Shown: piece by piece, positions 2,531-14,890 of the stretch
Position numbering within the stretch: the stretch's first letter is position 1
How the letters are laid out: every line of letters begins with the position of its first letter
IMG/VR virus record: IMGVR_UViG_3300013100_000017
Coordinates: 1-40,419 of that record
Source: a virus
DNA length: 40,419 bases
Reading direction: 5' to 3' (one strand)
Translations under genes and position numbers: made by a program
The notes under the pieces: generated by a model
What the model was told of the DNA's origin: nothing
Seen by the model: only the letters and a program-made list of their open reading frames with translations
The model's database searches: none

Positions 2531-2560
2531 GCCCCCGCCCATCTCGGCGGGGGCTTTTTT
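2531..2560 (+). terminator. Rho-independent terminator
   Basis: GCCCCCGCC (2531-2539) pairs with GGCGGGGGC (2546-2554) around a 6-nt loop, followed by six T residues. It ends the 1602-2520 operon and abuts the stop of the convergent repressor gene at 2559. Confidence 0.93.
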
Positions 2561-3050
2561 ATTGCCCTTCTTCGGCGAGGCGTTCCAGGTGCGACGGGTC
2601 GTTGTTCGCCGCGAGCCCGTACAAGAACTGCGTCTGCTCCTCCACGGCCTCCTCCGCCGCTTCCAACTCCGGCAGGCGGATCAGCAGCTCCTTCAGCAGC
2701 TCCCGCGTCGCAAACCCCCGCAAAGGCCGTGCAGCAGGCTTACGCGCCGGCGAATCAAGCATGTCCATCGTGACGTTGGACGCCTTCGTGTTGACCATCC
2801 GCAACACGTCATCGATTGCGCCGCGCCGCCACCCCAGAGCCCTCTCCAGCTTCTCCTTCGTTACCTCCTGCGGGATCGTCTCCCCGTACTCGAAATCGCG
2901 GATCGTTTTCGTGGCCCGGATCCCAGCCGCGGCAGCCATCGCCTCACGACTCACGCCAAGATCCTTCTCGCGGCGCTGCCGTGCCAGCTCACCCATGCGG
3001 CGCTTCAAAGCTTCCTTGCCGAACTCCCGTACAGCTTCCATCTGATACAT
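2559..3050 (-). CDS. HTH immunity repressor (probable)
   Basis: This 163-aa protein has an XRE-like helix-turn-helix at about residues 25-70: a REKDLGVSREAMAAAAGI stretch, then a KTIRDFEYGETIP turn and a final helix. A helical C-terminal half rich in Glu and Leu (about 110-150) probably dimerises. There is no visible LexA/CI-type Ser-Lys autoprotease domain, which fits control by the separate ImmA-like protease at 892-1350. It is transcribed leftwards, divergent from a Cro-like gene, across a region with several CTACTAG boxes that I take as its operators. A second ATG nine bases downstream (MEAVREF) is an alternative start. Repressor function is inference from fold and position. Confidence 0.72.
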   Translation of the reverse strand: MYQMEAVREFGKEALKRRMGELARQRREKDLGVSREAMAAAAGIRATKTIRDFEYGETIPQEVTKEKLERALGWRRGAIDDVLRMVNTKASNVTMDMLDSPARKPAARPLRGFATRELLKELLIRLPELEAAEEAVEEQTQFLYGLAANNDPSHLERLAEEGQ

Positions 3051-3347
3051 CCGTTTCCGTCACCCGCTCATTGGTGACTGTCTAGTGTGGGGCCGGCCTG
3101 GTCTTAGATGCCCGCCGTTGCCCCGTGCTCATGGTTGGAGACTTTCAAAAAAAGTTCGGTAACCGCAATGAGCATCTACTAGCAGAATAACGGTGTTTTG
3201 GTGGTAACCATGCGACTTCTACTACCCGAATATGTGTTCGAAGGTACTTGGTTTTACCCCTAGATTACGCGGTTTCTACCTGCTCCTACTACTAGTTACT
3301 ACGATTAGGTGTTGCTTCCTACTAGTAGTTACTGGTACGTTCTTCAC
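3051..3347. promoter_or_regulatory. Repressor/Cro operator region
   Basis: This divergent region separates the repressor from the early operon. It contains CTACTAGCAG (3176-3185), CTACTACCC (3219-3227), CTACC (3276-3280), overlapping CTACTACTAG and CTACTAGTTA boxes (3286-3299), and the perfect palindrome CTACTAGTAG (3319-3328). A rightward promoter is likely, with TTGCTT (3312-3317), 18 bp and TACGTT (3336-3341). The palindrome fills the spacer and the Cro-like ATG is only 6 nt downstream. The same boxes occur at other early promoters, which points to one regulator acting on all of them. Confidence 0.65.
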
Positions 3348-3698
3348 ATGAGCACACAGACAAGGGCAGCGGCCCACACCAACACCGCCTACAACAACGA
3401 AGACGTGCGTGTCGGAAAAACCCTCCAGGCACTCATGCAGCGCGAAGAGATCACCCCCGAAGGATGGGTTGTTCTCCGCAAGATCAGCCACGGCGAACTC
3501 GCCGCTGGCATTGTTCTCCCCGGCAAACCGAACGGCATCAACCGTTCCTACATTTCCCAGATCGTCATCGGCGCTAAGCACCTCAACGATGATCTGCTTT
3601 ACGCAATCGCCCGTTACCTCCGACTCGACCCGATGGTCATCAAAGTCCCCGACTCGGTCAAGCAGGCCGAACGCTTCGACCTCGGCCTGGCTGCATGA
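3348..3698 (+). CDS. Cro-like HTH regulator
   Basis: This 116-aa protein is the first gene of the rightward early operon, opposite the repressor. It has a helix-turn-helix-like region at about residues 45-95 (RKISHGELAAGIVLPG, then INRSYISQIVIGAKHLNDD and a LLYAIARYL helix). By position it should be Cro-like and compete for the CTACTAG boxes in the region upstream. The ATG at 3348 is used because it directly follows the predicted promoter and an upstream in-frame start at 3309 would lie inside the operator. Its stop overlaps the next start. Confidence 0.7.
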   Translation: MSTQTRAAAHTNTAYNNEDVRVGKTLQALMQREEITPEGWVVLRKISHGELAAGIVLPGKPNGINRSYISQIVIGAKHLNDDLLYAIARYLRLDPMVIKVPDSVKQAERFDLGLAA

Positions 3699-3922
3699 GC
3701 TTGTTCGACCAGCAGCTTCTGACGGTCCCGGAGCTTGCCGGCTACCTGCGGGTGAGTACAGGCACCGTGTACCGGAACCTCAAACAGTGGCCGCATATCA
3801 GGATCACGGACACGGACGTCAGGTTCAGCGAATCCAACGTCGAAGCGATCCTGGCACTCAAAACCAAAACACCCACACCACCACGGGCCGGACGGTCCAG
3901 AATCCCAAAGGAACGCAAATGA
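3695..3922 (+). CDS. Excisionase-like MerR/AlpA-type HTH protein
   Basis: This 75-aa basic protein has the compact winged-helix pattern of phage excisionases and AlpA-type regulators. LLTVPELAGYLRVSTGTVYRNL is the recognition helix pair and IRITDTDVRFSESNVEAIL is the wing and last helix, followed by a Lys/Arg/Pro-rich tail. It is the best candidate for the recombination directionality factor that works with the integrase at 38543-39664, since no other excisionase is present. ATGA overlaps couple it to both neighbours. It could alternatively be a second early regulator. Confidence 0.72.
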   Translation: MSLFDQQLLTVPELAGYLRVSTGTVYRNLKQWPHIRITDTDVRFSESNVEAILALKTKTPTPPRAGRSRIPKERK

Positions 3923-4215
3923 GCAAGGTTGAATACTCCTCGAACAACTCCGGCGGAGATTGGTGGCTGTCTGACAAGGACTGGTACGCCCTCGAAGCCG
4001 CCGGTTGGAATGTCGAATGGCGCCGCGACACCAAGGGCATGTTCCACAACGGAAGTGAGCGTTGGCTCGGCGCACTCGCAACGAACGCCAGCCGGGAAGG
4101 TCTGACGCTCTCAGAGGCCATCGCGGAGTTTGAGCGCATCACCGGCGAGAGCGCAGACGCCGAGGGTTGCAACTGCTGCGGTCAGCCTCACTACTTCAGC
4201 GAGACAGCCGCGTGA
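3919..4215 (+). CDS. Early protein, unknown, Cys-rich C-terminus
   Basis: I do not recognise this 98-aa protein. It is rich in Trp (DWWLSDKDWYALEAAGW) and ends with CNCCGQPHYF, whose Cys and His residues could bind zinc. The stretch LTLSEAIAEFERITGE looks like a helix. The start overlaps the previous stop by four bases and its own stop overlaps the next ATG, so it is translated as part of the early operon. Confidence 0.6.
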   Translation: MSKVEYSSNNSGGDWWLSDKDWYALEAAGWNVEWRRDTKGMFHNGSERWLGALATNASREGLTLSEAIAEFERITGESADAEGCNCCGQPHYFSETAA

Positions 4216-4385
4216 TGGGGGTGTCAACGACTATCTGGTCAACGACGCACACGGCCCCGATCGTCTTTGACCGGATCAGCCCGGAGAAGATTCAGATCAC
4301 CACGGAGGACGGCGCTACGCAGGAGTACCTGGTCGCCGACGTTTTGAAAGCATGCCACACCGAAATCGAACAGGAGCACAAATGA
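4215..4385 (+). CDS. Small early protein, unknown
   Basis: This 56-aa protein is unrecognised. It has alternating beta-type sequence (APIVFDRISPEKIQITTEDG) and an acidic C-terminal helix. The ATG at 4215 overlaps the previous TGA by one base, and the stop overlaps the next ATG by four. There is no membrane segment. It is judged real from its position in an unbroken chain of coupled genes and its C-ending codon preference. Confidence 0.55.
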   Translation: MGVSTTIWSTTHTAPIVFDRISPEKIQITTEDGATQEYLVADVLKACHTEIEQEHK

Positions 4386-4564
4386 GCAAGCACGCAGCAC
4401 CGGAGTCAATGGGCACGAAGGCTATGGAGCAGTTGGAGATCACGCTCTGCCGCATCTACGGTCGCCGTTCAGCGATCCAGGGCCACGGTCGTCACCGCGC
4501 AGAACCGACCGAATTCACGGCATTCAAGAACGGCGTCACCAGCAGCTTTGAGGCCGCAGCATGA
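4382..4564 (+). CDS. Small early protein, unknown
   Basis: This 60-aa basic protein of unknown function contains CRIYGRRSAIQGHGRHR, which could contact nucleic acid. It is coupled by ATGA overlaps on both sides. An upstream in-frame ATG at 4352 lies within the previous gene and has no ribosome-binding site, so ATG 4382 is preferred. Confidence 0.55.
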   Translation: MSKHAAPESMGTKAMEQLEITLCRIYGRRSAIQGHGRHRAEPTEFTAFKNGVTSSFEAAA

Positions 4565-4914
4565 CCCCCGAGTCGGCTGTTCGCTGGTTCTGCGGGCAGC
4601 ACGTTCGCGAAACCCCGTTCGATGAGCAGCCGTTGCAGTGGATCGAGCGGGCCATGCGAACCGAGGCCGCACTCAACGCAACACTCCGCGGCCGCATCAA
4701 CCGCCACTACATGAACGAGGTCATCACGACGATGGAAGAGATCGAGTCCGTCGAGTGTGGCACGCACCCGGATCTTGTGCAGAACCAGGCGCTCACGGTC
4801 AACAACAAACCCGACCTCCTCGACTCGTTGAACGCACAGCTCGCACGGGAAGTCGCCGCACTCCTCGCACACGTCGAACCAATGGCCGCAACGAAAGAGA
4901 AGGTGCCTGCATGA
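4561..4914 (+). CDS. Early protein, helical, unknown
   Basis: This 117-aa protein has no recognised domain. It is mostly helical and mildly acidic, with paired Cys residues at about 11 and 66. It is the third largest product of the early operon after the Cro-like protein. ATGA overlaps couple it to both neighbours. Third codon positions are strongly C/G, like the rest of the left arm, which supports the reading frame. Confidence 0.6.
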   Translation: MTPESAVRWFCGQHVRETPFDEQPLQWIERAMRTEAALNATLRGRINRHYMNEVITTMEEIESVECGTHPDLVQNQALTVNNKPDLLDSLNAQLAREVAALLAHVEPMAATKEKVPA

Positions 4915-5081
4915 AGCGCATCAACATCTGGCAGTGCAAAGACTGGTGCTGCGAGAACAGGCCACACAGTCAGCGCTACTGGTTTGCAAGGTCAACCGAC
5001 TTCGACCTCTACGAAGAGGTTTCGACTTGGCAGGCTGCACTCACACTTGCCAACTCGTACGCGAAGAAGGTGCCGGCATGA
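4911..5081 (+). CDS. Small early protein, unknown
   Basis: This 56-aa protein begins MKRINIWQCKDWCCENR, with three Cys residues in the first 14, and is rich in aromatics. It is unrecognised. The ATG at 4911 overlaps the previous stop, and its own stop overlaps the start of a small membrane protein. The Cys cluster could bind metal but has no second half elsewhere in the protein. Confidence 0.55.
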   Translation: MKRINIWQCKDWCCENRPHSQRYWFARSTDFDLYEEVSTWQAALTLANSYAKKVPA

Positions 5082-5191
5082 TCGCCCTCATCCTCGCCGC
5101 GCTGGTGTTTGTCGGCCTCGCTATCCGCCCGGCACTCGCCCACGACCGCGAACTACCCATCAGCGTCAAGGGCCGGTCATGGCGCATCTGA
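5078..5191 (+). CDS. Very small membrane or secreted protein
   Basis: This 37-aa product has a hydrophobic N-terminus (MIALILAALVFVGLAIRPALA) that could be a membrane anchor or a signal peptide, with the ALA-H junction resembling a signal-peptidase I site. The tail is short and basic. The function is unknown. Overlapping starts and stops place it in the early operon. Small early membrane proteins in phages sometimes act in superinfection exclusion, but nothing here shows that. Confidence 0.5.
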   Translation: MIALILAALVFVGLAIRPALAHDRELPISVKGRSWRI

Positions 5192-5307
5192 ACACCTGCC
5201 GCGCGTACAAAGAGCTCACGGGCGGCATCTGGGTCCACCACAGCGACCCCGACCCGCAATGCCAGGACACCAGCCACCACGCAAACTACACCCAGGAGCA
5301 GCAATGA
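5179..5307 (+). CDS. Small His-rich early protein
   Basis: This 42-aa protein is rich in His and contains two Cys (MAHLNTCRAYKELTGGIWVHH, then DPDPQCQDTSHHANY). It may bind metal but matches no family known to me. The start lies 13 nt inside the previous gene, with GGGCCGG upstream. The stop overlaps the next ATG. Confidence 0.5.
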   Translation: MAHLNTCRAYKELTGGIWVHHSDPDPQCQDTSHHANYTQEQQ

Positions 5308-5456
5308 CCGTCAATTTTGAGCCGGGATCAACTTTCGCCCGCAACAACATCCTCAACTACGCCGAACGCGACCCCGAACAGGAACGGTTAGCGCTCGCCT
5401 ACATGGACAAATGGGCGCCCGACCTCATCGGCATGGTCATGGGCGGCGTGCTGTGA
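5304..5456 (+). CDS. Small early protein, unknown
   Basis: This 50-aa protein is unrecognised. A middle helix (NYAERDPEQERLALAYMDKW) is followed by a hydrophobic end (LIGMVMGGVL). It is coupled by overlap on both sides, and the following gene starts at a GTG within its last codons. Confidence 0.5.
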   Translation: MTVNFEPGSTFARNNILNYAERDPEQERLALAYMDKWAPDLIGMVMGGVL

Positions 5457-5731
5457 TCCCGGAAGCCGCGTTCGATGCGGCGGTTTCGGCTTTGACTAAG
5501 GGCCGACCGCTCCTGCCTGAGTATCTGGAGGCCAAACGCGCTGACGCACGCGCCGCCCTCGAAGCCGCAGCCCCGCACATGCAGGAAACGCAGTGGGGCG
5601 TGCGCGATATCGTATCGCTGCACATCGCCGGCCACCCTTCAGAGGAGAGCGCCCGATCAATAGCGGCGGAACACCCCCAATGGTATGAGGTCGTCTGCCG
5701 CCCCATGCCCGGCATCTGGAGGGAGTCATGA
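5453..5731 (+). CDS. Small actinophage protein, IP(D/E)EAV family
   Basis: This 92-aa protein begins with the IPEAAFDAAVSAL motif and contains ARAALEAAAPHMQE, so it is a paralogue of the proteins at 1602 and 2287. Its DNA start, GTGATCCCGGAAGC, is nearly identical to the sequence at 1880 and 2287. The second half (GVRDIVSLHIAGHPSEES) is unique to it. The function is unknown. The GTG start overlaps the previous stop, and its stop overlaps the next ATG. Confidence 0.7.
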   Translation: MIPEAAFDAAVSALTKGRPLLPEYLEAKRADARAALEAAAPHMQETQWGVRDIVSLHIAGHPSEESARSIAAEHPQWYEVVCRPMPGIWRES

Positions 5732-5886
5732 CCCCGGATCCACTCGACCAGGCACACCAGCGGGCAGCCCGCGAACTGGACCAGCAGCGCCGCACCGACC
5801 CCAACCCGTTCGCCTGCCACGACTCATGCGGGTGCAAGGATGACGACGCAATCACCACACCCCTCGGACCCGAAGACCGCGAATAA
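5728..5886 (+). CDS. Last small gene of the early operon
   Basis: This 52-aa hydrophilic protein has an N-terminal helix (LDQAHQRAARELDQQRR), a FACHDSCGCKDDD stretch with three Cys and one His that could hold a metal, and an acidic tail. It is unrecognised. It starts within the previous stop and ends 14 bp before the next CTACTAC-box promoter. Confidence 0.55.
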   Translation: MTPDPLDQAHQRAARELDQQRRTDPNPFACHDSCGCKDDDAITTPLGPEDRE

Positions 5887-5900
5887 CCTTGCCCACCAAT

Positions 5901-5933
5901 CTACTACCGACTACTACTAGAACGGGGTAGAAT
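5901..5933 (+). promoter_or_regulatory. CTACTAC-box promoter for the recombination module
   Basis: Box A CTACTAC (5901-5907) and box B CTACTACTAG (5911-5920) start 10 bp apart, then AACGGGG and the -10 TAGAAT at 5928-5933. The boxes cover the place of the -35 element, and no TTGACA-like hexamer is present. Spacing is identical to 12900-12932 and 14755-14787. Confidence 0.68.
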
Positions 5934-5957
5934 TGAACCCTACGAAAGAAGGCAATT

Positions 5958-6779
5958 TTGAAGCCTGGAATCTACGACGGCATCAGCAACGCCGCCTACC
6001 ACGCAGACCCGGCACTCGGCAGTACGTCGTTGAAGACGCTCGCAACGAAAACGCCGGCGCACTACCAGCACGACCTGACCCACCCGAAGTTCTCCGACGC
6101 CTTCACCCTCGGAACCGCGGCGCACTCGCTCATCCTTGAAGGTGACTCCTCCGGGATCGCAATCGTTGAGGCCGACAACTGGCTCACCAAGGATGCTAAG
6201 GCCGCAAAGGCATCTGCACTCGATGATGGTAAGCAGCCGCTCCTGACCAAGGAGGTTGCGCAGGTCTATGCCATGTATGAATCAGTCATGGCGCACCAGG
6301 TCGCACGGGGACTGTTCACGAACCACAAGGCTGAGCAGTCCGTGTTCTGGGATGAGGAAGGCACGATGCTGAAGTGCCGCCCCGACGCCTGGAAGCCTGG
6401 CCTTCTGATCGACTTGAAAACGACCCGCAGCGCCGACCCCAACGAGTTCGGCAAAACCGCCCACGAATACGGCTACCACCAGTCAGCCGCGCACTACATC
6501 GACGGCGTCAAAGCAGCGACCGGCGAAGAGCTGCCCTTCCACTTCGTACTCGTTGAAAAAACCGAGCCCTACCTTGTGTCCGTGGTCGAGCTCGACATCG
6601 AAGCCATCAACATCGGACGGCAGCTCAACGACCGCGCCAAACGCATCTACCGCGAATGCGTTGCAACCAACACCTGGCCCGGCTACCCCAACGCCGACCT
6701 CATCAGCCTCCCCATGTGGGCCATCTACCAAGCCGAAGAACTCCTCGGCATCAACAACGACATCGAAATGAGCATCTGA
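5958..6779 (+). CDS. PD-(D/E)XK exonuclease, RecE/Cas4-like
   Basis: This 273-aa protein is a phage exonuclease of the RecE C-terminal (DUF3799) type. Such enzymes resect double-stranded DNA ends to prepare 3' tails for annealing. Visible motifs are GTAAHSLILEG (52-62), CRPDAW with Asp143, LLIDLKTT with Asp152 and Lys154, and the YHQSAAHY motif (173-180). The start is TTG at 5958, with GAAAGAAGG just upstream and no better codon nearby. It is the first gene behind the promoter at 5901. No recognisable RecT or Erf annealase follows; the next gene may take that place. The nuclease assignment is firm and the pathway is inference. Confidence 0.85.
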   Translation: MKPGIYDGISNAAYHADPALGSTSLKTLATKTPAHYQHDLTHPKFSDAFTLGTAAHSLILEGDSSGIAIVEADNWLTKDAKAAKASALDDGKQPLLTKEVAQVYAMYESVMAHQVARGLFTNHKAEQSVFWDEEGTMLKCRPDAWKPGLLIDLKTTRSADPNEFGKTAHEYGYHQSAAHYIDGVKAATGEELPFHFVLVEKTEPYLVSVVELDIEAINIGRQLNDRAKRIYRECVATNTWPGYPNADLISLPMWAIYQAEELLGINNDIEMSI

Positions 6780-7333
6780 TGGACCTTACCCAAAGCATCG
6801 CACCGAAATCCGACCAGTTGAACGCTGACGATCTGATGGCTGGCCCGGTGACTGTGACCATTGCTGAGGTCGCTAAGGGTAGCCCCGAGCAGCCCGTCGA
6901 TGTCCGCCTGGTGGAGTTCCCCGGACGCGCCTACCGGCCGTCGAAGAGCATGCGCCGCGTCATGGTGTCCGCGTGGGGTGCTGAAGCAGGCACGTACGGT
7001 GGGCGGCGACTGACCCTCGTGCGCAACCCGGAAATCACGTTCGGGCGCGAAAAGGTTGGCGGCATTGAGATCTCGCACCTGTCCAACATCGACAAGCCGC
7101 ACACCGTCGCACTCACCGCAACCCGCGGCAAACGTCGCAGCTTCACCGTCCAGCCACTCGCCGCCGCTGCACCGGCCCGCGACTGGGTATCCGAAGCGTA
7201 CGCAACGGAAGGCGACGTTGACCTGCTGCGCGCCCTCTACAAGGCCGCGCAGAACGCCGGCGCACCCAAGAAGGTGCTCGAAGCAATCCACGCACTCGCA
7301 ACGGGCCAGGCCGATGCACCGCCCGCCGCTTAG
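6779..7333 (+). CDS. Conserved phage recombination-module protein
   Basis: This 184-aa protein belongs to a phage family often found beside RecE-type nucleases. Signs are a FPGRAYRPSKSMRRVMVSAWG stretch split by a positively charged turn, then YGGRRLTLVRNPEITFG, then VGGIEISHLSNID and a LTATRGKRRSFTV strand. Together these suggest a compact beta-rich (OB-like) domain over residues 20-135, followed by a helical tail with AYATEGDVDLLRALYKAA. A DNA-binding or annealing-helper role is an inference. The ATG overlaps the exonuclease stop by one base, so the two are co-translated. Confidence 0.7.
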   Translation: MDLTQSIAPKSDQLNADDLMAGPVTVTIAEVAKGSPEQPVDVRLVEFPGRAYRPSKSMRRVMVSAWGAEAGTYGGRRLTLVRNPEITFGREKVGGIEISHLSNIDKPHTVALTATRGKRRSFTVQPLAAAAPARDWVSEAYATEGDVDLLRALYKAAQNAGAPKKVLEAIHALATGQADAPPAA

Positions 7334-7487
7334 CCGCTGTCGATGCGGAAAGCTCGCTTGCCCCTCACTTGACGCGGCCCGCGCAATCCGCGCCCAAATC
7401 TGGGCAGAACGCGGCGGCTCGCTCGACGTGCGCTACTACCCCCACGGATCCTGCTGGCACTGGACCCGAATGACCGAACCAATCTAA
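7314..7487 (+). CDS. Small Cys-rich phage protein
   Basis: This 57-aa protein overlaps the previous gene by 20 nt. It contains CRCGKLACPS (Cys-X-Cys...Cys) and ends DVRYYPHGSCWHWTR, a pattern I know from short actinophage proteins without an assigned function. The Cys and His residues could hold zinc. Its frame differs from both neighbours. Confidence 0.55.
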   Translation: MHRPPLSRCRCGKLACPSLDAARAIRAQIWAERGGSLDVRYYPHGSCWHWTRMTEPI

Positions 7488-7494
7488 GGAACCA

Positions 7495-7755
7495 ATGCGA
7501 ACCGTAACCGTCTATTCCAAACCGGCCTGCGTCCAATGTGACGCAACGAAACGGTGGCTGAAGAAACACGACATCCCCTACACCCTGATAGACATCACCA
7601 AATCACCCAAGGACGCCGAAGCAATCAAAGCACTCGGCTTCCAACAGGCCCCCGTCGTGATCGTCTCAACAGGCGACCCAGAAACCGACCTCATGTGGTC
7701 CGGCTTCAACACCGAAAACCTCACCAAATACACCCACTCAACAAAGGCGGCATAA
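7495..7755 (+). CDS. nrdH: NrdH-like glutaredoxin
   Basis: This 86-aa redoxin of the NrdH group donates electrons to class Ib ribonucleotide reductase, supplying deoxynucleotides for phage replication. The active site CVQC is at residues 12-15. The rest follows the thioredoxin fold, with KKHDIPYTLIDI as the second strand, FQQAPVV carrying the cis-Pro, and a SGFNTENL helix at the end. No reductase is encoded, so it would work with the host enzyme. The ATG has AAGGA upstream. A frameshifted small gene follows in the same frame. Confidence 0.88.
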   Translation: MRTVTVYSKPACVQCDATKRWLKKHDIPYTLIDITKSPKDAEAIKALGFQQAPVVIVSTGDPETDLMWSGFNTENLTKYTHSTKAA

Positions 7756-7757
7756 GC

Positions 7758-7947
7758 ATGGCAGGCACGGCCACAGTCATCGTTGAACTTGTTCGACGGG
7801 ACATCCGTAAAGCGTGAGATCGCATGGACTGGCGGCAACCCAGGCCTTGACGCATGGGAGTTTGAAGGCGCGGCAGAAGTCGCAACCAAGCAGGTTCGGG
7901 CAGCAATCGGCGCCATCTTCGGCGACAACAATAAAGGACAGAAATAA
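7758..7947 (+). CDS. Small gene with apparent +1 frameshift
   Basis: From ATG 7758 (AAAGGCGG upstream) the first 11 codons read MAGTATVIVEL, then this frame continues only to a TGA at 7815-7817. The +1 frame continues smoothly as FDGTSVKREIAWTGGNPG, DAWEFEGAAEVATKQV and further to TAA 7945-7947, with no stops and sensible codons. A joined product would be about 62 aa. Alternatives are a TTG start at 7783 (LNLFDGTS), which has no ribosome-binding site, a programmed shift, or a one-base mutation. The second part looks coding because it fills the gap between nrdH and ssb exactly. Confidence 0.5.
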
Positions 7948-7948
7948 C

Positions 7949-8407
7949 ATGGCAGACATTACCCTTACCGGCAACCTCGGTTCCGATTCTGAGCTGACTT
8001 TCACCCCGAACGGCAAGGCAAAGCTGGAGTTCAGCGTCGGCGACACCCCGCGACGCCTCAACCAGCAGACCAACCAGTGGGAAGACGCCGGCGAAACAAC
8101 CTGGTGGCGCGTCACCGAATGGGAGCAGAAAGCCGAAGCGTTGGCCGAGCACCTGCTGAAGGGCACAAAGGTTCTCATCACCGGAACCGCCGCCGTCCGC
8201 ACCTGCGAAAAGAAGGACGGCACCAAGGGCTTCTCCGCGGAAATCAAGCCCAAGACCATCGCCATCGTCCCCCGCGCCAACCGTGGACCGGCAGCATCTG
8301 GCGGAAACGGCGCCGCGCAAGGCAACTGGGGCGGCAACCAGGCCACAACCGGCAACAACTCGCCGGGCCAGTGGAGCAACGGCAACCTCACCGACCCGCC
8401 CTTCTGA
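7949..8407 (+). CDS. ssb: Single-stranded DNA-binding protein
   Basis: This 152-aa SSB protects single-stranded DNA and recruits repair and replication proteins. The OB fold spans residues 1-110: ITLTGNLGSDSELTFTPNG, then KLEFSVGD, a WWRVTEW strand, and AEHLLKGTKVLITGTAAVR. A Gly/Asn/Gln-rich linker follows. The C-terminal tip ends LTDPPF, close to the usual acidic tip (DDDIPF) that binds partner proteins, but with fewer acidic residues. The ATG lies two bases after the stop of the preceding small gene. It belongs to the 5958 transcription unit. Confidence 0.92.
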   Translation: MADITLTGNLGSDSELTFTPNGKAKLEFSVGDTPRRLNQQTNQWEDAGETTWWRVTEWEQKAEALAEHLLKGTKVLITGTAAVRTCEKKDGTKGFSAEIKPKTIAIVPRANRGPAASGGNGAAQGNWGGNQATTGNNSPGQWSNGNLTDPPF

Positions 8408-8421
8408 GAGGAGAAGTAGCT

Positions 8422-8574
8422 ATGAAGGAAGTAACCATCACCGGCGAGTGGCGCAGTACGCATGTCGTTGAAGTACCTGACGACTTCGTTACCCCCGACA
8501 CCCTCAGCGAGTTCCCGGACGACGTGCTCGAAGAACTGAACACAAACAACGCAGAGCTCATCGACTGGTACTAA
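8422..8574 (+). CDS. Small acidic protein after ssb
   Basis: This 50-aa, very acidic protein (MKEVTITGEWRSTHVVEVPDD, then DVLEELNTNNAELIDWY) follows ssb with the strong ribosome-binding site GAGAGGAG. It is unrecognised. Small acidic partners of SSB exist in phages, but no evidence here goes beyond adjacency. A hairpin terminator follows directly. Confidence 0.65.
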   Translation: MKEVTITGEWRSTHVVEVPDDFVTPDTLSEFPDDVLEELNTNNAELIDWY

Positions 8575-8584
8575 CCAACCCCCA

Positions 8585-8614
8585 GCATGGCGGGGCTTCC
8601 GAGCCCCGCCATGC
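8585..8614 (+). terminator. Strong hairpin, probable terminator
   Basis: GCATGGCGGGGCT (8585-8597) and AGCCCCGCCATGC (8602-8614) form a perfect 13-bp stem with a TCCG tetraloop. No T-run follows, so termination may be partial or Rho-assisted. It ends the unit started at 5901 and precedes the next CTACTAG box. Confidence 0.7.
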
Positions 8615-8622
8615 CCACCCAC

Positions 8623-8642
8623 CTACCACCAACTACTAGTAG
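8623..8642. promoter_or_regulatory. Operator pair CTACCAC / CTACTAGTAG
   Basis: Box A CTACCAC (8623-8629) and the perfect palindrome CTACTAGTAG (8633-8642) show the 10-bp period seen at the other promoters. The downstream GGGGTAGAAT element is missing (AAAAGATGC instead), so this may be a bare operator or a diverged promoter. Confidence 0.55.
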
Positions 8643-8656
8643 AAAAGATGCAAACC

Positions 8657-8803
8657 ATGAGCCCGTTTCATCTATCGGTTGCGGAGAACATGGCGGCGTT
8701 CAGACGCTGGCATGAGACGGCGCACACCCTCACCACCTGGGAAGCCTGCCCGCACAGCCCGTGCGACCACATGGACGCCGAATTCAGGCGGTGCTGGCGG
8801 TGA
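8657..8803 (+). CDS. Small Cys/His phage protein
   Basis: This short gene encodes 48 aa, or 51 aa from ATG 8648. It has a Trp- and Cys-containing C-terminus, WEACPHSPCDHMDAEFRRCW, in which Cys, Cys, His and Cys could form a small zinc knuckle. ATG 8657 is preferred because AGAAAAG then lies 9 nt upstream. The stop overlaps the next GTG start, so the two are coupled. The function is unknown. Confidence 0.55.
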   Translation: MSPFHLSVAENMAAFRRWHETAHTLTTWEACPHSPCDHMDAEFRRCWR

Positions 8804-9117
8804 GTCCCTACAACTACGGCGAAACACGCGCCGCAAAAGAAGCCCGAGAAGCCGAAGAACGAGCACGCGAACGCCTCGCCGAACTCCGCCGCATCGAAGC
8901 CGAACTCGAAGCACGCATCGAACACCGCAACAACCTCATCCGCAAAGTACCAAAAATCCGCACCTACGCACCCACGCCCGAACAAATCCGGGCATGGGAA
9001 CAACGAGCCGCCGACCTGCCCGAACCGAGATGGGGCGGACAACACAACCTCTACCTCGCATCCCTCGAAGCAGCCACCTGGGACCAATCGCACCGACGCA
9101 AAGGAAAAGCCGCATGA
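8800..9117 (+). CDS. Coiled-coil phage protein
   Basis: This 105-aa protein has a long charged helix over residues 8-55 (AAKEAREAEERARERLAELR and on to EARIEHRNNLIRKV), a likely coiled coil, and a C-terminal part containing TPEQIRAWEQRAADLPEPRW. The GTG start overlaps the previous stop and its own stop overlaps the methyltransferase ATG. It may be a structural or regulatory partner of its neighbours; the function is unknown. Confidence 0.6.
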   Translation: MSPYNYGETRAAKEAREAEERARERLAELRRIEAELEARIEHRNNLIRKVPKIRTYAPTPEQIRAWEQRAADLPEPRWGGQHNLYLASLEAATWDQSHRRKGKAA

Positions 9118-9941
9118 GCATCAAGTACTTCAGCATGTTCTCCGGAATCGGCGGCTTCGAACTCGGCATCGAACAAGCAGCCAAGGGGCTCGGCATCACG
9201 ACAGAGTGCGTCGGATACTCCGAAATTGATAAGCACGCCATCGCAACCTACGAGGAGCACTTCAACCATGACAACTACGGCGACGCCACCACAATCAAAG
9301 CCGATACCCTTCCAGAGTTCGATCTTCTCGTTGGTGGATTTCCCTGCCAGGCATTCAGCATCGCCGGCAAACGCCTCGGATTTGATGAAACTCGCGGCAC
9401 CCTGTTCTTCGACATTGCCCGCATCATCCGAGCACGAGAGCCACGCTACTTCATCCTCGAAAACGTCAAAGGGCTCGTCAGCCACAACAACGGGCAAACT
9501 CTCCGAACCATCCTCCGGACCCTTGATGAGCTGGGGTATGACGTCCAGTACAAGGTACTCAACTCAAAGGACTACGGCGTCCCCCAGAACCGAGAACGCA
9601 TCTACCTTGTGGGAAATCTTGGAGGAACACCCCGACCCGAAGTATTTTCTCCCACCGGATCGAGCAACCCGCATTCAACAGTCGGCCTCACAACAGAAAC
9701 CGCAGTTGCTCGAACACTCACCGCGGGTGGCAACTCCGGCGGAAACCACAGCGGCATGACGATCCTCCGCACGCCACAAGGCGACCGGCGCCTCACCCCA
9801 GTCGAGTGGGAGCGCCTTCAGGGCTTCCCGGACCGGTGGACCATCGGTAGCGACACCCAGCGATACAAGCAGTGCGGCAACGCTGTCACCGTCAACGTTG
9901 TCCGCGACGTAGCGACCCGACTTCTGGCTGGTGCCGCATGA
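9114..9941 (+). CDS. DNA (cytosine-5) methyltransferase
   Basis: This 275-aa enzyme transfers methyl from S-adenosylmethionine to C5 of cytosine. All key motifs are visible: I FSMFSGIGGFELG (6-18), IV GGFPCQAFS with catalytic Cys78, VI ENV (116-118), VIII QNRERIYLVG (158-167), a short target-recognition region (about 170-222), IX RRLTPVEWERLQGFP (225-239) and X GNAVTVNV (255-262). No restriction enzyme is next to it, so it is an orphan methylase that may shield phage DNA from host restriction. The short recognition domain suggests a short target. Overlaps place it in an operon with replication genes. Confidence 0.95.
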   Translation: MSIKYFSMFSGIGGFELGIEQAAKGLGITTECVGYSEIDKHAIATYEEHFNHDNYGDATTIKADTLPEFDLLVGGFPCQAFSIAGKRLGFDETRGTLFFDIARIIRAREPRYFILENVKGLVSHNNGQTLRTILRTLDELGYDVQYKVLNSKDYGVPQNRERIYLVGNLGGTPRPEVFSPTGSSNPHSTVGLTTETAVARTLTAGGNSGGNHSGMTILRTPQGDRRLTPVEWERLQGFPDRWTIGSDTQRYKQCGNAVTVNVVRDVATRLLAGAA

Positions 9942-10204
9942 CCCGCGAGGCGCTCCTGGTGCGCCAACAAGCCCGGCAAGCCGCTGACGCCGCACGGAAA
10001 GCCGAACTCGCCGAACCCCCAATGAACATCACGGAACTGGTCGCCGAGATTGAGCACATGCTCCGGCTCAACCAGGGCCGCGGAACCATCGTCCACCAAC
10101 TCGGCTACACAGGCCGCGAAACCAGCCTCGAACGACGCCTACAACGCGCACACCGCGGCGACCTCATCCAAGCACTACTCCGAGACGACAAGGCGACAGC
10201 ATAA
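9938..10204 (+). CDS. Small HTH-like actinophage protein
   Basis: This 88-aa protein has a charged N-terminal helix (LLVRQQARQAADAARKAEL) and a second domain, NITELVAEIEHMLRLNQG, then VHQLGYTGRETSLERRLQR and DLIQALL. The second part matches a common actinophage pattern (ELVEDVEWLL...GYS..SLERRL.R) that resembles a helix-turn-helix. Its role may be transcriptional. It starts in the methyltransferase stop and ends directly before the initiator ATG. Confidence 0.65.
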   Translation: MTREALLVRQQARQAADAARKAELAEPPMNITELVAEIEHMLRLNQGRGTIVHQLGYTGRETSLERRLQRAHRGDLIQALLRDDKATA

Positions 10205-10972
10205 ATGGCCTGGTTCAAAATTGACGACGGGTTCACAAACTCAAAGCCTGTACTCCGACTCCAAAGGCGTGTGAGATCTTCCGCAATCGGTTTGTGGACA
10301 CTCGCCGGCGCATGGTCCGCAAAGGAAATGACTGACGGGTTCGTTCCCGACTACGTCATTGAGGAGCTGGCATCGACCCCGGCAATCGCCGCTCACCTGG
10401 TGAAGTGCGGGCTGTGGGATGAGGCCGAAGAAGGCTGGCAATTCAAGGGATGGGACAAGTATCAGCCCACCCGCGAGCAGATCATGGAGGCCCGCGACCG
10501 TGAGACTGAGCGTAAGCGGAAGTACAGGGAGTCCCTGCGGCGTCCCGGTGGGACAAGTGAGGGACGGACGGAGGGACACCAGCGGGAGTCCGGACACCCC
10601 GACCCGACCCGACCCGACCCGACCCGATCCAAGATAAAAGAAGAAGCTAACGCTTCTTCTGAGCCCCGCAAGCGGGCCACACGAATCGCAGAAGATTTCC
10701 AGGTAACTCCAGAGATGAAGCTCTGGGCAGCCACCAAAGCCCCGAACGCCGATCTCCACACCGAGACTGAGAAGTTCATCAACTACTGGGTGGCGAAGTC
10801 GGGCAAGGACGCAACAAAGCTGGACTGGGCGGCGACGTGGCGGAACTGGATCCTCAACGCCAAATCATCGCAGCCGGCACGCATGGACCACAGCGCCCGA
10901 GGACTTGCTAAGGGCATGGCGATGCTCCGGGATTACGACGCACGAACCGCACCTTTCGAATTGGAGGCATGA
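10205..10972 (+). CDS. Phage replication initiator (DnaD-like)
   Basis: This 255-aa protein starts MAWFKIDDGFTNSKPVL, the typical opening of phage replication proteins with an N-terminal winged helix (residues 1-90, with WKGWDKYQ-like FKGWDKYQPTREQIMEAR). A flexible linker contains PDPTRPDPTR, encoded by a GACCC tandem repeat. The C-terminal domain (150-225: FQVTPEMKLWAATKAPNAD, then FINYWVAKSG and WAATWRNWILNA) is DnaD/DnaT-like and probably binds single-stranded DNA or the helicase loader. The ATG follows the previous stop directly. The next gene is a helicase-loader-like protein, and no helicase or primase is encoded, so host DnaB is presumably recruited. Confidence 0.8.
   Translation: MAWFKIDDGFTNSKPVLRLQRRVRSSAIGLWTLAGAWSAKEMTDGFVPDYVIEELASTPAIAAHLVKCGLWDEAEEGWQFKGWDKYQPTREQIMEARDRETERKRKYRESLRRPGGTSEGRTEGHQRESGHPDPTRPDPTRSKIKEEANASSEPRKRATRIAEDFQVTPEMKLWAATKAPNADLHTETEKFINYWVAKSGKDATKLDWAATWRNWILNAKSSQPARMDHSARGLAKGMAMLRDYDARTAPFELEA
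10601..10625 (+). repeat. GACCC tandem repeat, possible replication origin
   Basis: Five exact copies of the 5-bp unit GACCC stand in tandem, flanked by degenerate units (ACCCC at 10596 and GATCC at 10626). They encode the DPTRPDPTR linker of the initiator. Iterons inside initiator genes often form the phage origin; an unstructured protein linker is the alternative reading. Confidence 0.6.
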
Positions 10973-10975
10973 CAG

Positions 10976-11350
10976 ATGGACCACAAGCAGACGATCGCGA
11001 TGCTGACCTGGATCAACCAGGTTGACCCCCGCGTGATGCTCAACGAGGCTGCCGCGGAGACGTGGGCGTATTCGATGCGGAACGTCGCACCGGATGTTGC
11101 TAAGCAGGCGGTGTTGGAGCATTACAAAGCGAACGAGAACATCGCCGCTTCTCCTGCCGCGATCAGCAAGCGTGCGGCGAACATCCGGACGAGTCGTGAC
11201 GCGAAAGTCTCGGCTATCGAGGCAGCCCCGGCCCCGGCGAAGCACCCGATGTCGTGGCGGGCTCGTAACCCGGAGGAGTGGGACAGGTTGTTTGAACTGG
11301 GCAGGCAGGAACGCAGGGACGACCTTCAGCGGCGCGGGATTAGCGCATGA
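10976..11350 (+). CDS. Helicase-loader-like protein
   Basis: This 124-aa, mostly helical protein (TIAMLTWINQVDPRVMLNEA, then WAYSMRNVAPDVAKQAVLEHY) resembles the small replicative helicase loader/inhibitor proteins that follow initiator genes in actinophages. It would deliver host DnaB to the origin. The C-terminal third is charged (RNPEEWDRLFELGRQERRDD). It begins 4 bp after the initiator stop and overlaps the next gene by four bases. The family match is from memory of the pattern, so moderate confidence. Confidence 0.65.
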   Translation: MDHKQTIAMLTWINQVDPRVMLNEAAAETWAYSMRNVAPDVAKQAVLEHYKANENIAASPAAISKRAANIRTSRDAKVSAIEAAPAPAKHPMSWRARNPEEWDRLFELGRQERRDDLQRRGISA

Positions 11351-11922
11351 TCTACCCGGAGACGCAAGACGAGTGCTGGAAGTGGCGTGGAACTCCCGAG
11401 CACTACCAGGAGCAGGCTGCTATCGCGGCCATCGAAGCCGGCGTAACCATCATGCCGTGGTGCTGGATCGAAGCCGGCTGCGGAACAGAGCTTTGCATGG
11501 AGCCAAGGCATCTTCTGGTTCATGCGCCAGAACGACTCGAATACCCGAACCGGATTTGCATCTACTGTGGTCGCGGCGGGTTCACGCGGGATCACCTGAT
11601 GCCGGTGCGCGTGACTGGTGATGCGGCCCGCAAGCACGTTCTGACCGTCCCGGCATGCGGTGAATGCAACAGCATCATCAGCGACAAGCCGGTTAGCTCG
11701 ATCACTGGGCGGCGGGCCATCGCAAAAGCTGGACTTCGCAAGAAGTACAAGCGGATCTTGCGGGCTCATGAATACTCGGATGAAGAGATTGAAGAGTTCG
11801 GGCCAGGATTGAGGCCGACAATCCTGCGGGCGCGAGCCGAGAAGGCCGACGTTCAGGAGCGCTTGGATTTCGCAAAGGATCACGCCTACGACCTGCGCTA
11901 CTTGGGCCCGCTCTGGAATTGA
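11347..11922 (+). CDS. HNH endonuclease, replication-module type
   Basis: This 191-aa protein has a central CIYCGRGGFTRDHLMPV and VPACGECNSIISD, which form a zinc-supported HNH/treble-clef nuclease site at about residues 75-120. The N-terminus (MIYPETQDECWKWRGTPEHYQ) resembles the first part of HNH_3 proteins. A long helical tail follows. Unlike the mobile HNH genes here it has no structured leader and is coupled by ATGA to the loader gene, so it is a resident of the replication operon. A role in processing branched DNA is possible but not shown. Confidence 0.82.
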   Translation: MIYPETQDECWKWRGTPEHYQEQAAIAAIEAGVTIMPWCWIEAGCGTELCMEPRHLLVHAPERLEYPNRICIYCGRGGFTRDHLMPVRVTGDAARKHVLTVPACGECNSIISDKPVSSITGRRAIAKAGLRKKYKRILRAHEYSDEEIEEFGPGLRPTILRARAEKADVQERLDFAKDHAYDLRYLGPLWN

Positions 11923-11967
11923 TGACCCTTACGCGCTCGGACTCATCACACCACTGGAGGATGCCGC

Positions 11968-12330
11968 ATGACCGCATATCACCGCCAGAAGGGTTCGACG
12001 TTCGAGCGCATGATCGCCGACTACCTAAAGTCGCAGGGGTTCCCGTTCGCGGATCGTCGGGTGAAGTCAGGAGCCAAGTACCGCGGCGATATCGGCGGCA
12101 TTGGCATCCACGAGCAGCGGCTTGTGCTTGAAGCCAAAAATACAGCCAGGATCAACCTCGGCGTCTGGGCTTCAGAGGTGGAAGTCGAGCGAGTGAATGA
12201 CTCGGCTCTAGCTGGCGTAATTCTGCACAAACGTCACGGCAAAGGTAAAGCAGAGGACCAATGGGTAACGATGACATTGCGCGACTTTACTGCCATTTTG
12301 ACGGGGAAAAGGCCGGAAGATGTGGGATAA
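11968..12330 (+). CDS. Holliday-junction-resolvase-like PD-(D/E)XK nuclease
   Basis: This 120-aa nuclease has the archaeal-Hjc/phage resolvase pattern: GSTFERMIADYL with Glu13, RRVKSGAKYRGDIGG with Asp41, and LVLEAKN with Glu55 and Lys57 as the catalytic ExK. A W-E-x-E helix (NLGVWASEVEVERVN) and an ILHKRHGKGKAEDQW strand follow. It probably cuts branched recombination or replication intermediates before packaging. GGAGG at 11956 supports the ATG at 11968. It is the last gene before the mobile HNH insertion. Confidence 0.82.
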   Translation: MTAYHRQKGSTFERMIADYLKSQGFPFADRRVKSGAKYRGDIGGIGIHEQRLVLEAKNTARINLGVWASEVEVERVNDSALAGVILHKRHGKGKAEDQWVTMTLRDFTAILTGKRPEDVG

Positions 12331-12338
12331 TAGAAACA

Positions 12339-12410
12339 GCCCCGGAAGTGCTGGAAACACTTACCGAGGCCTAACCCTAGAAATCAATGCGACTGATTAG
12401 GAGGGCTGCT
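12339..12410 (+). promoter_or_regulatory. Structured 5' leader of mobile HNH gene
   Basis: A long hairpin spans 12339-12370: GCC...GGC, CGG/CCG and AAGTG/CACTT around a 7-nt loop. A second hairpin pairs CCCT (12375-12378) with AGGG (12402-12405) and AATCA (12382-12386) with TGATT (12394-12398). The ribosome-binding site AGGAGG (12399-12404) is partly paired in it. CAGCCC (12337-12342) could instead pair with GGGCTG (12403-12408), giving a competing fold. Confidence 0.6.
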
Positions 12411-12884
12411 ATGCAGTCTAATCGAACTACCTCCGCCCGCGAAACTCCCTACAGCGAAACCTATCCCGGCGGAAAGCTGCGGGGTACGAGCGTCAGGGAA
12501 CGACTCGCGCTGCGAACTGCGGTTGATGGTGAATGCTGGATCTGGCAGGGAGCCAAGCGCCCCAGCGGGTACGGAGTAATTGGAGTCCACCAGGACGGCA
12601 AGCACACCGTGAAGTCCACACACCGCGTAGCTTACGAGCTGGCGGTAGGCCCGATCCCCGAAGGCCTGCACATCGATCACATTTGCAGCAACAAGGCATG
12701 CGTGCGACCCGAGCACCTGCGCGCCGTACAGCAGCAGGCGAACAACCAGGCCATGTGGGACCGGGGCGAGCGGAAGCGGCAGACTCATTGCAAATGGGGC
12801 CACGAGTTCACCGCCGAAAATACGGCGTTCACGGCTCGCGGTGGACGCCAGTGCAGGGCTTGCAGGACAGGCAAACGCCCCTAA
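12411..12884 (+). CDS. Mobile HNH endonuclease with C-terminal zinc ribbon
   Basis: This 157-aa homing-type HNH_3 nuclease has CWIWQGAKRPSGYGVIGV (about 46-63), HRVAYELAVGPIPEGLHIDH and ICSNKACVRPEHLRAV as the HNH core (about 75-112). A C-terminal HCKWGHEFTAEN...CRACRTGK zinc ribbon follows, common in this group. ATG 12411 is chosen over 12387 because AGGAGG lies just upstream. Its own structured leader and its place between the resolvase and a promoter mark it as a mobile insertion. It probably cuts alleles lacking the insertion, but no intron is seen. Confidence 0.88.
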   Translation: MQSNRTTSARETPYSETYPGGKLRGTSVRERLALRTAVDGECWIWQGAKRPSGYGVIGVHQDGKHTVKSTHRVAYELAVGPIPEGLHIDHICSNKACVRPEHLRAVQQQANNQAMWDRGERKRQTHCKWGHEFTAENTAFTARGGRQCRACRTGKRP

Positions 12885-12899
12885 CTTTTGTCCACACTT

Positions 12900-12932
12900 C
12901 TACTACCGCCTACTAGTATTTCGGGGTAGAAT
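12900..12932 (+). promoter_or_regulatory. CTACTAC-box promoter for the 12945 operon
   Basis: Box A CTACTAC (12900-12906), box B CTACTAGTAT (12910-12919), then TTCGGGG and the -10 TAGAAT (12927-12932). Spacing equals that at 5901. The ATG at 12945 is 12 nt after the -10, leaving a leader of about 5 nt or none. Confidence 0.68.
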
Positions 12933-12944
12933 TAAACAACGGGC

Positions 12945-13214
12945 ATGAGCGACCGGAACACAGAGAAACGAGTGAACATGAGCATGAATCAGCACGCCGA
13001 GCAGGCCGTAAACCGCCTGCGTAACGGCACCATAAACGAAATCAGCCGGGCCCGAGTAGAAGCAACCCTCGCGCTGGCATACGAGCAGCGCACCGCAAAC
13101 ATGATCGCGGCTTTGCAGGCGGTCCGTTATGAGGGAGGCGAGGAAATTATCCCCAACTCTGATCACGCATGGGCCACGGTCAAGGCAATCAACGAACGAC
13201 TGGACCTCGCATGA
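12945..13214 (+). CDS. Small protein, unknown
   Basis: This 89-aa helical protein (HAEQAVNRLRNGTINEISRA, then VEATLALAYEQRTANMIAAL) is unrecognised. ATG 12945 follows the promoter closely; an internal ATG at 12978 (MSMNQHAEQ) is the alternative, with a weak site upstream. It is the first gene of a six-gene unit to 14726, and its stop overlaps the next ATG. Confidence 0.6.
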   Translation: MSDRNTEKRVNMSMNQHAEQAVNRLRNGTINEISRARVEATLALAYEQRTANMIAALQAVRYEGGEEIIPNSDHAWATVKAINERLDLA

Positions 13215-13363
13215 GCGATTACACGGAGCACCTAATCAGCCTGGCGGGTGGTGATGGTGAGGACGACGCCGCCCTTGCCCGTGCGATCCTGAACCGTCGC
13301 CGGCGGAAATGTGTTGCGGAAGGATGCCACGTTGACGGGGAATGCGCGAGGTGCGGGCTGTGA
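13211..13363 (+). CDS. Small Cys-rich protein, unknown
   Basis: This 50-aa protein has an acidic first half and an Arg-rich turn followed by CVAEGCHVDGECARCGL, with four Cys in 15 residues that suggest a zinc knuckle. It is unrecognised. It is coupled by ATGA to the gene upstream. Confidence 0.55.
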   Translation: MSDYTEHLISLAGGDGEDDAALARAILNRRRRKCVAEGCHVDGECARCGL

Positions 13364-13377
13364 GGGAGGCAGAAAAC

Positions 13378-13590
13378 ATGGCTACTGGAAAGTTGACGCG
13401 CTTCGATGAGGAGCTGGGTAAGGCTATGGCTGATCGGCTCGGGCTCCCACTCAACTCGACGCTTCGGGAGTGGACCGCTGAGAGCTCGGGTAAGACTGTT
13501 TGGGTCACCATGCAGACCATGAAGGCAATTCATCTCGATGAGTACAACGAGCTCGTTCGTGCGGCCTCAAAGCGTGCATCCAATGACTGA
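13378..13590 (+). CDS. Small protein, unknown
   Basis: This 70-aa protein is preceded by GGGAGGCAG, a strong ribosome-binding site, 14 bp after the previous stop. It is helical with alternating charge (LTRFDEELGKAMADRLGL, then LREWTAESSGKTVWVTM). I know no family for it. Codon use here shows more T/G endings than the early operon. Confidence 0.55.
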   Translation: MATGKLTRFDEELGKAMADRLGLPLNSTLREWTAESSGKTVWVTMQTMKAIHLDEYNELVRAASKRASND

Positions 13591-13741
13591 TCGCACGGTG
13601 AATTACGACGCGCTCCTGGCCCGCGAGTCGGAGGCCCGTGCACGGATCGCCAAAGCGTTGTTCGAGCTCGACATGCAACGTTCCCGCGACCAATACTCCC
13701 CCACCGCCATACGACGAATCCTAGAAAGCGAGCAGACATGA
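13583..13741 (+). CDS. Small helical protein, unknown
   Basis: This 52-aa protein (YDALLARESEARARIAKAL, then RSRDQYSPTAIRRIL) is probably one or two helices. It overlaps the previous gene by 8 nt and the next ATG by 4. It is unrecognised. Confidence 0.5.
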   Translation: MTDRTVNYDALLARESEARARIAKALFELDMQRSRDQYSPTAIRRILESEQT

Positions 13742-13947
13742 GCCGCAAAATCAGGACCATATCCAAGGCAGAAGAAGTGCGGCCCGGAACTATTGCAAGG
13801 GGCGTCAACGTAAACGGTCAGTCGTTCTACACTCTCGAACTCACCGAGGATGGATTCTGGGCTCAGATGGCCTGCGACGACGAGTGGGAACATTCTTCAC
13901 TGTTTCCATTCTTCGACCACCTAGAACTCATCTGGGAGCCTAAATGA
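13738..13947 (+). CDS. Small beta-rich protein, unknown
   Basis: This 69-aa protein has predicted strands (TIARGVNVNGQSFYTLELTE, then WAQMACDDEWEH) and an acidic end (FFDHLELIWEPK). It is unrecognised. It is coupled to both neighbours by four-base overlaps. Confidence 0.5.
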   Translation: MSRKIRTISKAEEVRPGTIARGVNVNGQSFYTLELTEDGFWAQMACDDEWEHSSLFPFFDHLELIWEPK

Positions 13948-14726
13948 CCTGCCCCTGCGGCCTCACCCCGCTCGACGGTGACACGATTTGCCCGGCATGC
14001 GTGTCGGATGTGACGAAGTTGTTGGCTGAGACGGATGCGGTTGTTGGGGATTTGGTGCGTGCTGTACCGAGGGCGAGTCTGACCGCGTCCTATGGTGAGC
14101 GGGTGTCGTCTAGCGGATCCTTGCACGCGCCGTTGCCGATCAACGACACCGCCCTCGACGCACACATGGCGTTGGATAAGTGGCTGATGCGGACGGCCCT
14201 GGAACTCGCCAAGGTCACACGGGCGCCACTGACAGGCCGGGACAGCGCCGGGCTATCTTCCTACCTGCTCGCCCACATGAACACATTGCGCCGGCAAGAC
14301 TGGGCAGGGCGGGTCAAGGGTGAACTAGGCGGACTGCTGAAGAAGTGCGTTCAAGCAACCCTCCCACCCGGCGAACGAATCAACGTCGGCGCATGCGGAT
14401 CCGTGTTCAACGGTGAGGCATGCACCAACCCGCTGACCCCGCTGAAGGACCAGGACCAGATCAAGTGCCGGGTATGCGGCACTAGCTGGGGCGTGGCAGA
14501 CAGGCAACGGTCGGCAATCGGAGCAGCATGGGACGCTATTGGAGCCCCCGCCATCGTCGTTCGCGCCCTCAAAGAGTACGGGGTCAGCATCAAGCCAAAG
14601 AACATCGAGAACTGGGTCATGCTCGGACACCTAACCCCCGTAAACACTGAAGGCCGCAAGCAATACCGCGTGTCAGATGTGTACGGCGTTGCTAAGAGAA
14701 TGGCGGCACGTCGCAAGGCCGCTTGA
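13944..14726 (+). CDS. Zinc-finger/HTH actinophage protein
   Basis: This 260-aa protein is built like a DNA-binding regulator. The N-terminus MTCPCGLTPLDGDTICPAC is a zinc ribbon and a helical middle follows. A second metal site has CGSVFNGEACTNPL and CRVCG (about 149-175), and a MerR-like C-terminal helix-turn-helix follows (residues 200-250: IVVRALKEYGVSIKPKNIEN, then GRKQYRVSDVYGVAKRM). This layout is frequent in actinobacterial phages, where it is unnamed. As the last gene of its operon it could regulate the next unit. The regulatory role is inference. Confidence 0.7.
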   Translation: MTCPCGLTPLDGDTICPACVSDVTKLLAETDAVVGDLVRAVPRASLTASYGERVSSSGSLHAPLPINDTALDAHMALDKWLMRTALELAKVTRAPLTGRDSAGLSSYLLAHMNTLRRQDWAGRVKGELGGLLKKCVQATLPPGERINVGACGSVFNGEACTNPLTPLKDQDQIKCRVCGTSWGVADRQRSAIGAAWDAIGAPAIVVRALKEYGVSIKPKNIENWVMLGHLTPVNTEGRKQYRVSDVYGVAKRMAARRKAA

Positions 14727-14754
14727 TAACGAAACGGTAACTATGCCTATCTTT

Positions 14755-14787
14755 CTACTATCTTCTACTACTATTTAGGGGTAGATG
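14755..14787 (+). promoter_or_regulatory. CTACTA-box promoter, fourth copy
   Basis: Box A CTACTAT (14755-14761), box B CTACTACTAT (14765-14774), then TTAGGGG and TAGATG (14782-14787) in the -10 position. Spacing equals that of 5901 and 12900. An alternative -10, TATGAT, lies at 14798-14803. Confidence 0.62.
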
Positions 14788-14789
14788 TG

Positions 14790-14865: not shown

Positions 14866-14890
14866 GTGTCACAAATCAAAGGAGCGCGCC

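Follow-up and report, generated by a model that had tools for sequence, protein, structure and literature searches.

One-turn direct repeats of an exchangeable hexamer mark a putative regulon in an Arthrobacter-type prophage

The DNA analyzed here is an IMG/VR virus record of 40,419 bp (the whole stretch is referred to as the window), bounded by a 26-bp terminal direct repeat that resembles a tRNA 3′ end. This repeat is the putative attachment core (positions 1–26, plus strand; second copy at 40394–40419). The nearest named relatives of the window are mostly Arthrobacter phages, and we regard it as an Arthrobacter-type prophage. The subject of this study is a set of short tandem repeats distributed over its regulatory and lytic units, and the protein that may bind them. 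A tyrosine integrase is encoded on the minus strand (38543–39664), as are an M78/IrrE-like peptidase of the type found beside repressors in ImmA/ImmR systems (892–1350) and an XRE-family repressor of 163 amino acids (rep, 2559–3050), which is one candidate for the binder. On the plus strand follow a Cro-like helix-turn-helix (HTH) protein of 116 amino acids (3348–3698) and, following cro in the first lytic operon, an excisionase-like HTH_17 protein of 75 amino acids (xis, 3695–3922), our preferred candidate. A zinc-ribbon/HTH protein of family phrog_908 is encoded at 13944–14726.

The earlier note on this DNA had described the repeated element as a 10-bp palindrome, CTACTAGTAG, occurring exactly or in close variants at 14 positions. 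Each of these positions bears the stated or a related word, and the enrichment is readily reproduced, with 18 matches at ≤2 mismatches, whereas dinucleotide shuffles average 3.97 and none of 100 reaches 18. The palindrome does not hold as the unit, since exact copies of it are found only at 3319 and 8633; the agreement at 5901, 3219 and 14755 lies chiefly in the left CTACTA, and the word at 8623 reads CTACCA. The conserved feature is a 10-bp direct repeat, and the palindrome reading was rejected on these grounds: the distributed pairs consist of the hexamer CTACTA, placed head to tail at a distance of precisely one DNA turn (10 bp). CTACTA or its complement TAGTAG occurs 24 times in the window; 200 Markov shuffles average 3.6 occurrences and never exceed 10. 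The pattern CTACTA-N4-CTACTA with ≤1 mismatch starts at 3286, 3289, 5901, 8623, 12900 and 14755, always on the plus strand and never on the minus strand; these six starts compare to a mean of 0.01 and a maximum of 1 in shuffles. When every 6-mer was scanned at periods 8–13, CTACTA at period 10 topped the window with three exact loci (shuffles give one or two). Based on a hand-made gene list for positions 1–15079, every site checked is intergenic and thus lies within the approximately 10% non-coding share of that region. The absence of sites from the late genes, as previously noted, is borne out for the pairs, but single CTACTA words are present there. The notion of a phage-specific regulon, with sites in the early region and before lytic units of one temperate phage, is supported.

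The pairs at 5901, 8623, 12900 and 14755 point along transcription. At 5901–5933 (plus strand), CTACTACCGA is directly followed by CTACTACTAG and by TAGAAT (5928–5933), in the predicted promoter of the exonuclease gene (5958–6779). The pair CTACTACCGC and CTACTAGTAT with TAGAAT at 12927–12932 (12900–12932, plus strand) forms the predicted promoter ahead of 12945–13214, and the pair CTACTATCTT and CTACTACTAT with TAGATG at 14782–14787 (14755–14787, plus strand) is found directly behind the phrog_908 gene, ahead of a block that leads to the terminase, portal and protease genes. At these three sites the TAGAAT or TAGATG hexamer, a putative -10 element, lies exactly 17 bp past the start of the second copy, and no -35 element was seen. 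The fourth pair, CTACCACCAA and CTACTAGTAG (8623–8642, plus strand), is located behind a hairpin and before a gene start at 8648 or 8658, with no recognizable -10. The 50-nt stretches at 5889 (5889–5938) and 12888 are 80% identical, as would be expected if promoter copies had been duplicated inside the phage without any dedicated binder. We consider this very improbable, as the word is uniform within each phage, is swapped as a set across phages (see below), and is found also at attP and at sites that lack a -10.

Two further groups of words differ from these pairs. The site at 1561–1594 (plus strand), before the gene 1602–1883, consists of CTACTA (1561), an inverted TAGTAG (1576) and TAGAAT (1589–1594); the inverted word lies 13 bp ahead of the -10, as in the exonuclease promoters of sister phages. 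Between rep and cro, in the immunity region (3176–3338, plus strand), we find CTACTAGCAG at 3176, CTACTACCCG at 3219, the triple CTACCTGCTC, CTACTACTAG and TTACTACGAT at 3276–3305, and CTACTAGTAG followed by TTACTGGTAC at 3319–3338. These words possibly constitute a second set, used by the repressor or Cro. The same interval contains a LexA/SOS-box-like palindrome, CGAATATGTGTTCG, at 3227–3240. It is a single match per genome, at the equivalent place, in the window and in the related genomes G001–G004 and G016, and two matches are present in G017; the putative switch may thus be directly responsive to SOS induction.

Relatives of the window were collected with the exonuclease encoded downstream of 5901 as query, which yielded 36 IMG/VR loci, and further members came from searches with the M78 peptidase and the Xis-like protein. 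Eight related IMG/VR phages carry 3–7 TCACTG-N4-TCACTG loci each, and one, L021 (G008), uses TTCTGG with the same period. In nine related phages the recurrent word (three to seven loci, against one or two in shuffles) appears at period 10 only. The exonuclease promoters of L010 and L015 are homologous to that of the window on both flanks, but their word is TCACTGCGAA followed by TCACTG, together with an inverted CAGTGA; these genomes contain five to seven TCACTG-N4-TCACTG pairs, before the exonuclease gene, downstream of ssb and around the phrog_908 gene. Three copies of TTCTGG are found in L021 behind its phrog_908 gene, a place equivalent to that of the 14755 pair. Sister phages also carry a pair behind ssb at the place equivalent to 8623, likewise beside a hairpin. 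In all TCACTG phages this pair (for instance at 12172 in L010) is directly followed by a conserved GGCGCCCCC hairpin, with no clear -10. Several sisters have a pair just ahead of a gene start, which in L116 is that of the homologue of the window's replication-initiation gene. Except for two pairs that are reversed, in G001 and G004, the pairs are oriented along transcription, at promoters or in short intergenic gaps. Across 57 distinct sites of the CTACTA and TCACTG phages, which are non-independent as they come from related phages, -10-like hexamers cluster behind the second word at 17 bp (10 hits) and at 27 bp (10 hits), with 8 hits elsewhere, and the distances of 17 and 27 bp fall on one helix face. 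The earlier note proposed to look for its motif in related prophages; what is kept in the relatives is the layout of one-turn pairs, and CTACTA itself is replaced by TCACTG or TTCTGG. As the word is swapped at the exonuclease promoter while the flanks are conserved, and the layout is retained, the set appears to be a genuine phage regulon with changeable word specificity, in which a single phage-encoded protein, whose recognition word can change, probably controls the pairs.

Other searches returned no further members. Exact CTACTA-type patterns gave only unrelated low-GC matches in viral_contigs and genome_contigs, the repressor and Cro as single-protein queries brought up no relative from either viral_contigs or phages, and the 3695–3922 protein had no match at E 0.01 in the phage and plasmid collections. 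A tandem word is absent from the Arthrobacter phages Anekin, ArV2 and Isolde, and inspection by eye showed nothing comparable at period 10 between their rep and cro genes. One Arthrobacter plasmid with a repressor-like match likewise has no recurrent tandem word.

The word is also found near attachment sites. L021 has four TTCTGG half-sites in the stretch that separates the att core from a GTTGACGCCGTCAAC repeat; in the same interval L071 carries two tandem TCACTG pairs that face each other, and G004 a similar but weaker set. The sites of lambda Xis occupy a comparable position in attP. An exact pair lies about 100–160 bp off the att core in G001, G002 and L078. The attP arm of the window (86–116, plus strand) offers the weak candidates CTACCT (86), CTAGTG (96) and inverted TGGTAG (111), at a position equal to that of the strong sites of G004, L071 and L021.

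In relatives without distributed words, a tandem of period 10 is still present over the cro promoter, and its word differs by phage: TTCGCA in L073, TTGCAC in L074, GTTTCC in L084, TACCTA in L065 and TTCAGT in L066. Since one-turn tandems lie over these promoters, the repressor or Cro reading such repeats is a live rival. In the window, L141 and the G002 type, the cro-promoter word is YTACTG-like and unlike the distributed words. The earlier note may therefore have merged two similar sets by joining the repressor/Cro sites at 3176–3338 with the distributed pairs. In G001 and G004, whose regulon word is TCACTG, the rep-cro gap is free of any TCACTG tandem, and the rep-cro region of L021 contains only a single copy of its word.

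A scheme in line with the earlier note, in which the XRE repressor (2559–3050) binds all pairs and silences the prophage by blocking promoters, with an L5-like block to elongation at pairs that lack a -10, would account for sites at most lytic units that are directed along transcription, for stoperator-like pairs without a -10 beside hairpins or ahead of the replication-initiator gene, and for the CTACTA words that the window carries between rep and cro, and it has the tandems over the relatives' cro promoters on its side. We nonetheless judge it rather unlikely. Besides the rep-cro regions of G001, G004 and L021, it meets the difficulty that repressors sharing one word are only 50–54% identical, and that G011–G013 retain the repressor family and not the distributed sites; pairs at attP would moreover have to repress int or excision. 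Either the repressor or its opponent Cro had been named as the natural binder; neither is established as such. Cro itself and the phrog_908 protein both carry or resemble DNA-binding domains; Cro is located in the switch, and the phrog_908 gene immediately precedes the 14755 pair. That either is the binder is improbable, as the switch region of G001 raises the same objection to Cro as to the repressor. For the phrog_908 protein, identity is 65% between the window and G001 and 56% between G001 and G003, although the latter two share TCACTG; as its identity does not track the word, it was rejected.

Within the TCACTG group the Xis-like proteins are 78–96% identical, while the repressors are of two types with 50–54% identity, and the Xis of the window is 51–54% identical to those of the TCACTG group. 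G011–G013 have a repressor homologue but neither Xis nor distributed word, and L069, which lacks a repressor homologue, combines a Xis-like protein of 71% identity with a TCACTG pair (one mismatch) immediately ahead of xis. The L069 locus (reverse complement, 5198–7660) encodes, next to the Xis-like protein, an M78 peptidase and a gene that reads as a serine recombinase. The 3695–3922 protein itself gives HTH_17/excisionase matches, which are under the curated cut-offs. Its fold model (predicted local distance difference test score, pLDDT, 74; predicted template modeling score, pTM, 0.49) matches BldC on DNA best, followed by Pukovnik Xis and RdfS, and a profile search agrees weakly with these fold matches. 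The model thus suggests a winged-helix protein of the type of recombination directionality factors (RDFs), encoded in the early lytic operon. These three proteins either occupy direct repeats of about one turn in a head-to-tail arrangement or form filaments of this kind (PMC5859096, PMC7498355, PMC11963761); head-to-tail binding to direct repeats is described for BldC and Apl, and the one-turn spacing appears to be common to RDFs (PMC5859096, PMC7498355).

The one-turn direct repeats, the location at attP, a word shared by closely similar Xis proteins but by dissimilar repressors, the fold matches and the absence of a cro tandem in G001 and G004 indirectly favor the 3695–3922 protein. That the set represents the sites of one phage regulator that reads a short asymmetric word on one-turn repeats, most likely this HTH_17 protein, has in our estimate an even chance of being correct. 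Upon induction, the cro-xis operon would be transcribed, and the 3695–3922 protein would bind near attP, steering the integrase towards excision. It would also bind the pairs before the exonuclease gene, the 12945 block and the block that leads to the late genes, and switch on these promoters, which have a -10 but no -35. The protein would thus be Apl/Cox/RdfS-like, acting on excision and on lytic promoters, probably as an activator. We infer the identity of the binder, a role in excision, and activation over repression.

Several observations weigh against this assignment. G014 has a Xis homologue but no distributed word, and L141, which has the closest Rep, Cro and Xis, shows only one triple site and no clear word at the attP position. 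The att match of the window is weak, and we estimate that a match of this quality would arise by chance in such a length in about half of cases. Both TCACTG repressor types share the recognition-region motif QFE-AQRWPR, which the repressor of the window does not have; this also speaks for the repressor as binder. The confidence of the 3695–3922 model is moderate, with E-values of 0.005–0.3 for the fold matches. As rep, cro and xis are neighbors, covariation constitutes weak evidence because of linkage. A plain activator does not account for pairs without a -10, namely 8623 with its equivalents and, in sisters, the pair ahead of the replication-initiator gene; 8623 and its equivalents give the strongest support to a stoperator-like role of a repressor.

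Excisionases that double as regulators are already known, at a few promoters. A phage excisionase acting as master lytic activator, through one exact word that it reads head to tail at one-turn spacing at att and at several middle and late-leading promoters, and that is rewritten as a set upon a change in the specificity of the protein, would go further; we advance this tentatively and consider it possible, with the balance somewhat against it. If true, related phages would have separately wired lytic programs. Lytic wiring by one direct-repeat word, of which related phages use at least three (CTACTA, TCACTG and TTCTGG), would show, as a natural experiment, how a DNA-binding specificity changes along with all its sites. 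Versions of the exonuclease promoter that differ chiefly in the word make the idea open to a direct test. Should the binder turn out to be the repressor, the set would instead represent a further type of distributed-repressor system, the second one, whose operators are unlike those of the cluster A mycobacteriophages.

Some further features were seen in the early region. Small early genes at 1605, 1877, 2284 and 5450 have alike 34-nt starts of the GTGATCCCGGA type, which suggests a duplicated small-gene family. The repressors of G001 (L054:8187–8822) and L021 (L021:6730–7473) have an additional N-terminal HTH domain that the repressor of the window lacks, and most relatives have a similar acidic LAA-xDD tail at the repressor end, perhaps a cleavage or degradation signal. 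The M78 peptidase (892–1350) and the repressor (2559–3050) have equal orientation in all fuller relatives. In this the phages resemble ImmR/ImmA-type modules of repressor and M78 peptidase, as in ICEBs1 and phi105: all full relatives have an XRE repressor next to a gene for an M78 peptidase, and in the window further genes separate the two.

The literature collection that was searched contained neither a genome-wide excisionase regulon nor such repeats in Arthrobacter phages. The L5-type repressor with its stoperators (cluster A mycobacteriophages) resembles the present set in its asymmetric, dispersed sites along transcription, at promoters and in short gaps (PMC9283540), but uses 13-bp single sites, more than 20 in number, and a two-domain monomer, whereas here paired one-turn hexamers occur at about six loci. 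BldC of Streptomyces is the best fold match and binds head-to-tail direct repeats at many promoters (PMC5859096); it is a chromosomal developmental regulator with 9-bp repeats and an AT-rich target, with no link to att. RdfS (ICEMlSymR7A) and XisF4 (Pf4) are excisionases that also activate promoters, XisF4 at a replication-initiator gene (PMC11963761, PMC7379572), and RdfS is a winged helix of the HTH_17 group like the 3695–3922 model. Few target promoters are known for either, and RdfS has no clear consensus word, in contrast to the strict word at up to seven places here. Apl (phage 186) and Cox (P2), excisionases that are also transcription regulators and are encoded early in the lytic operon, bind head-to-tail repeats of about one turn at att and at the switch (PMC7498355). 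Their known sites are these, and not many lytic promoters fixed in phase to a -10; the switch regions of G001 and G004 lack the word.

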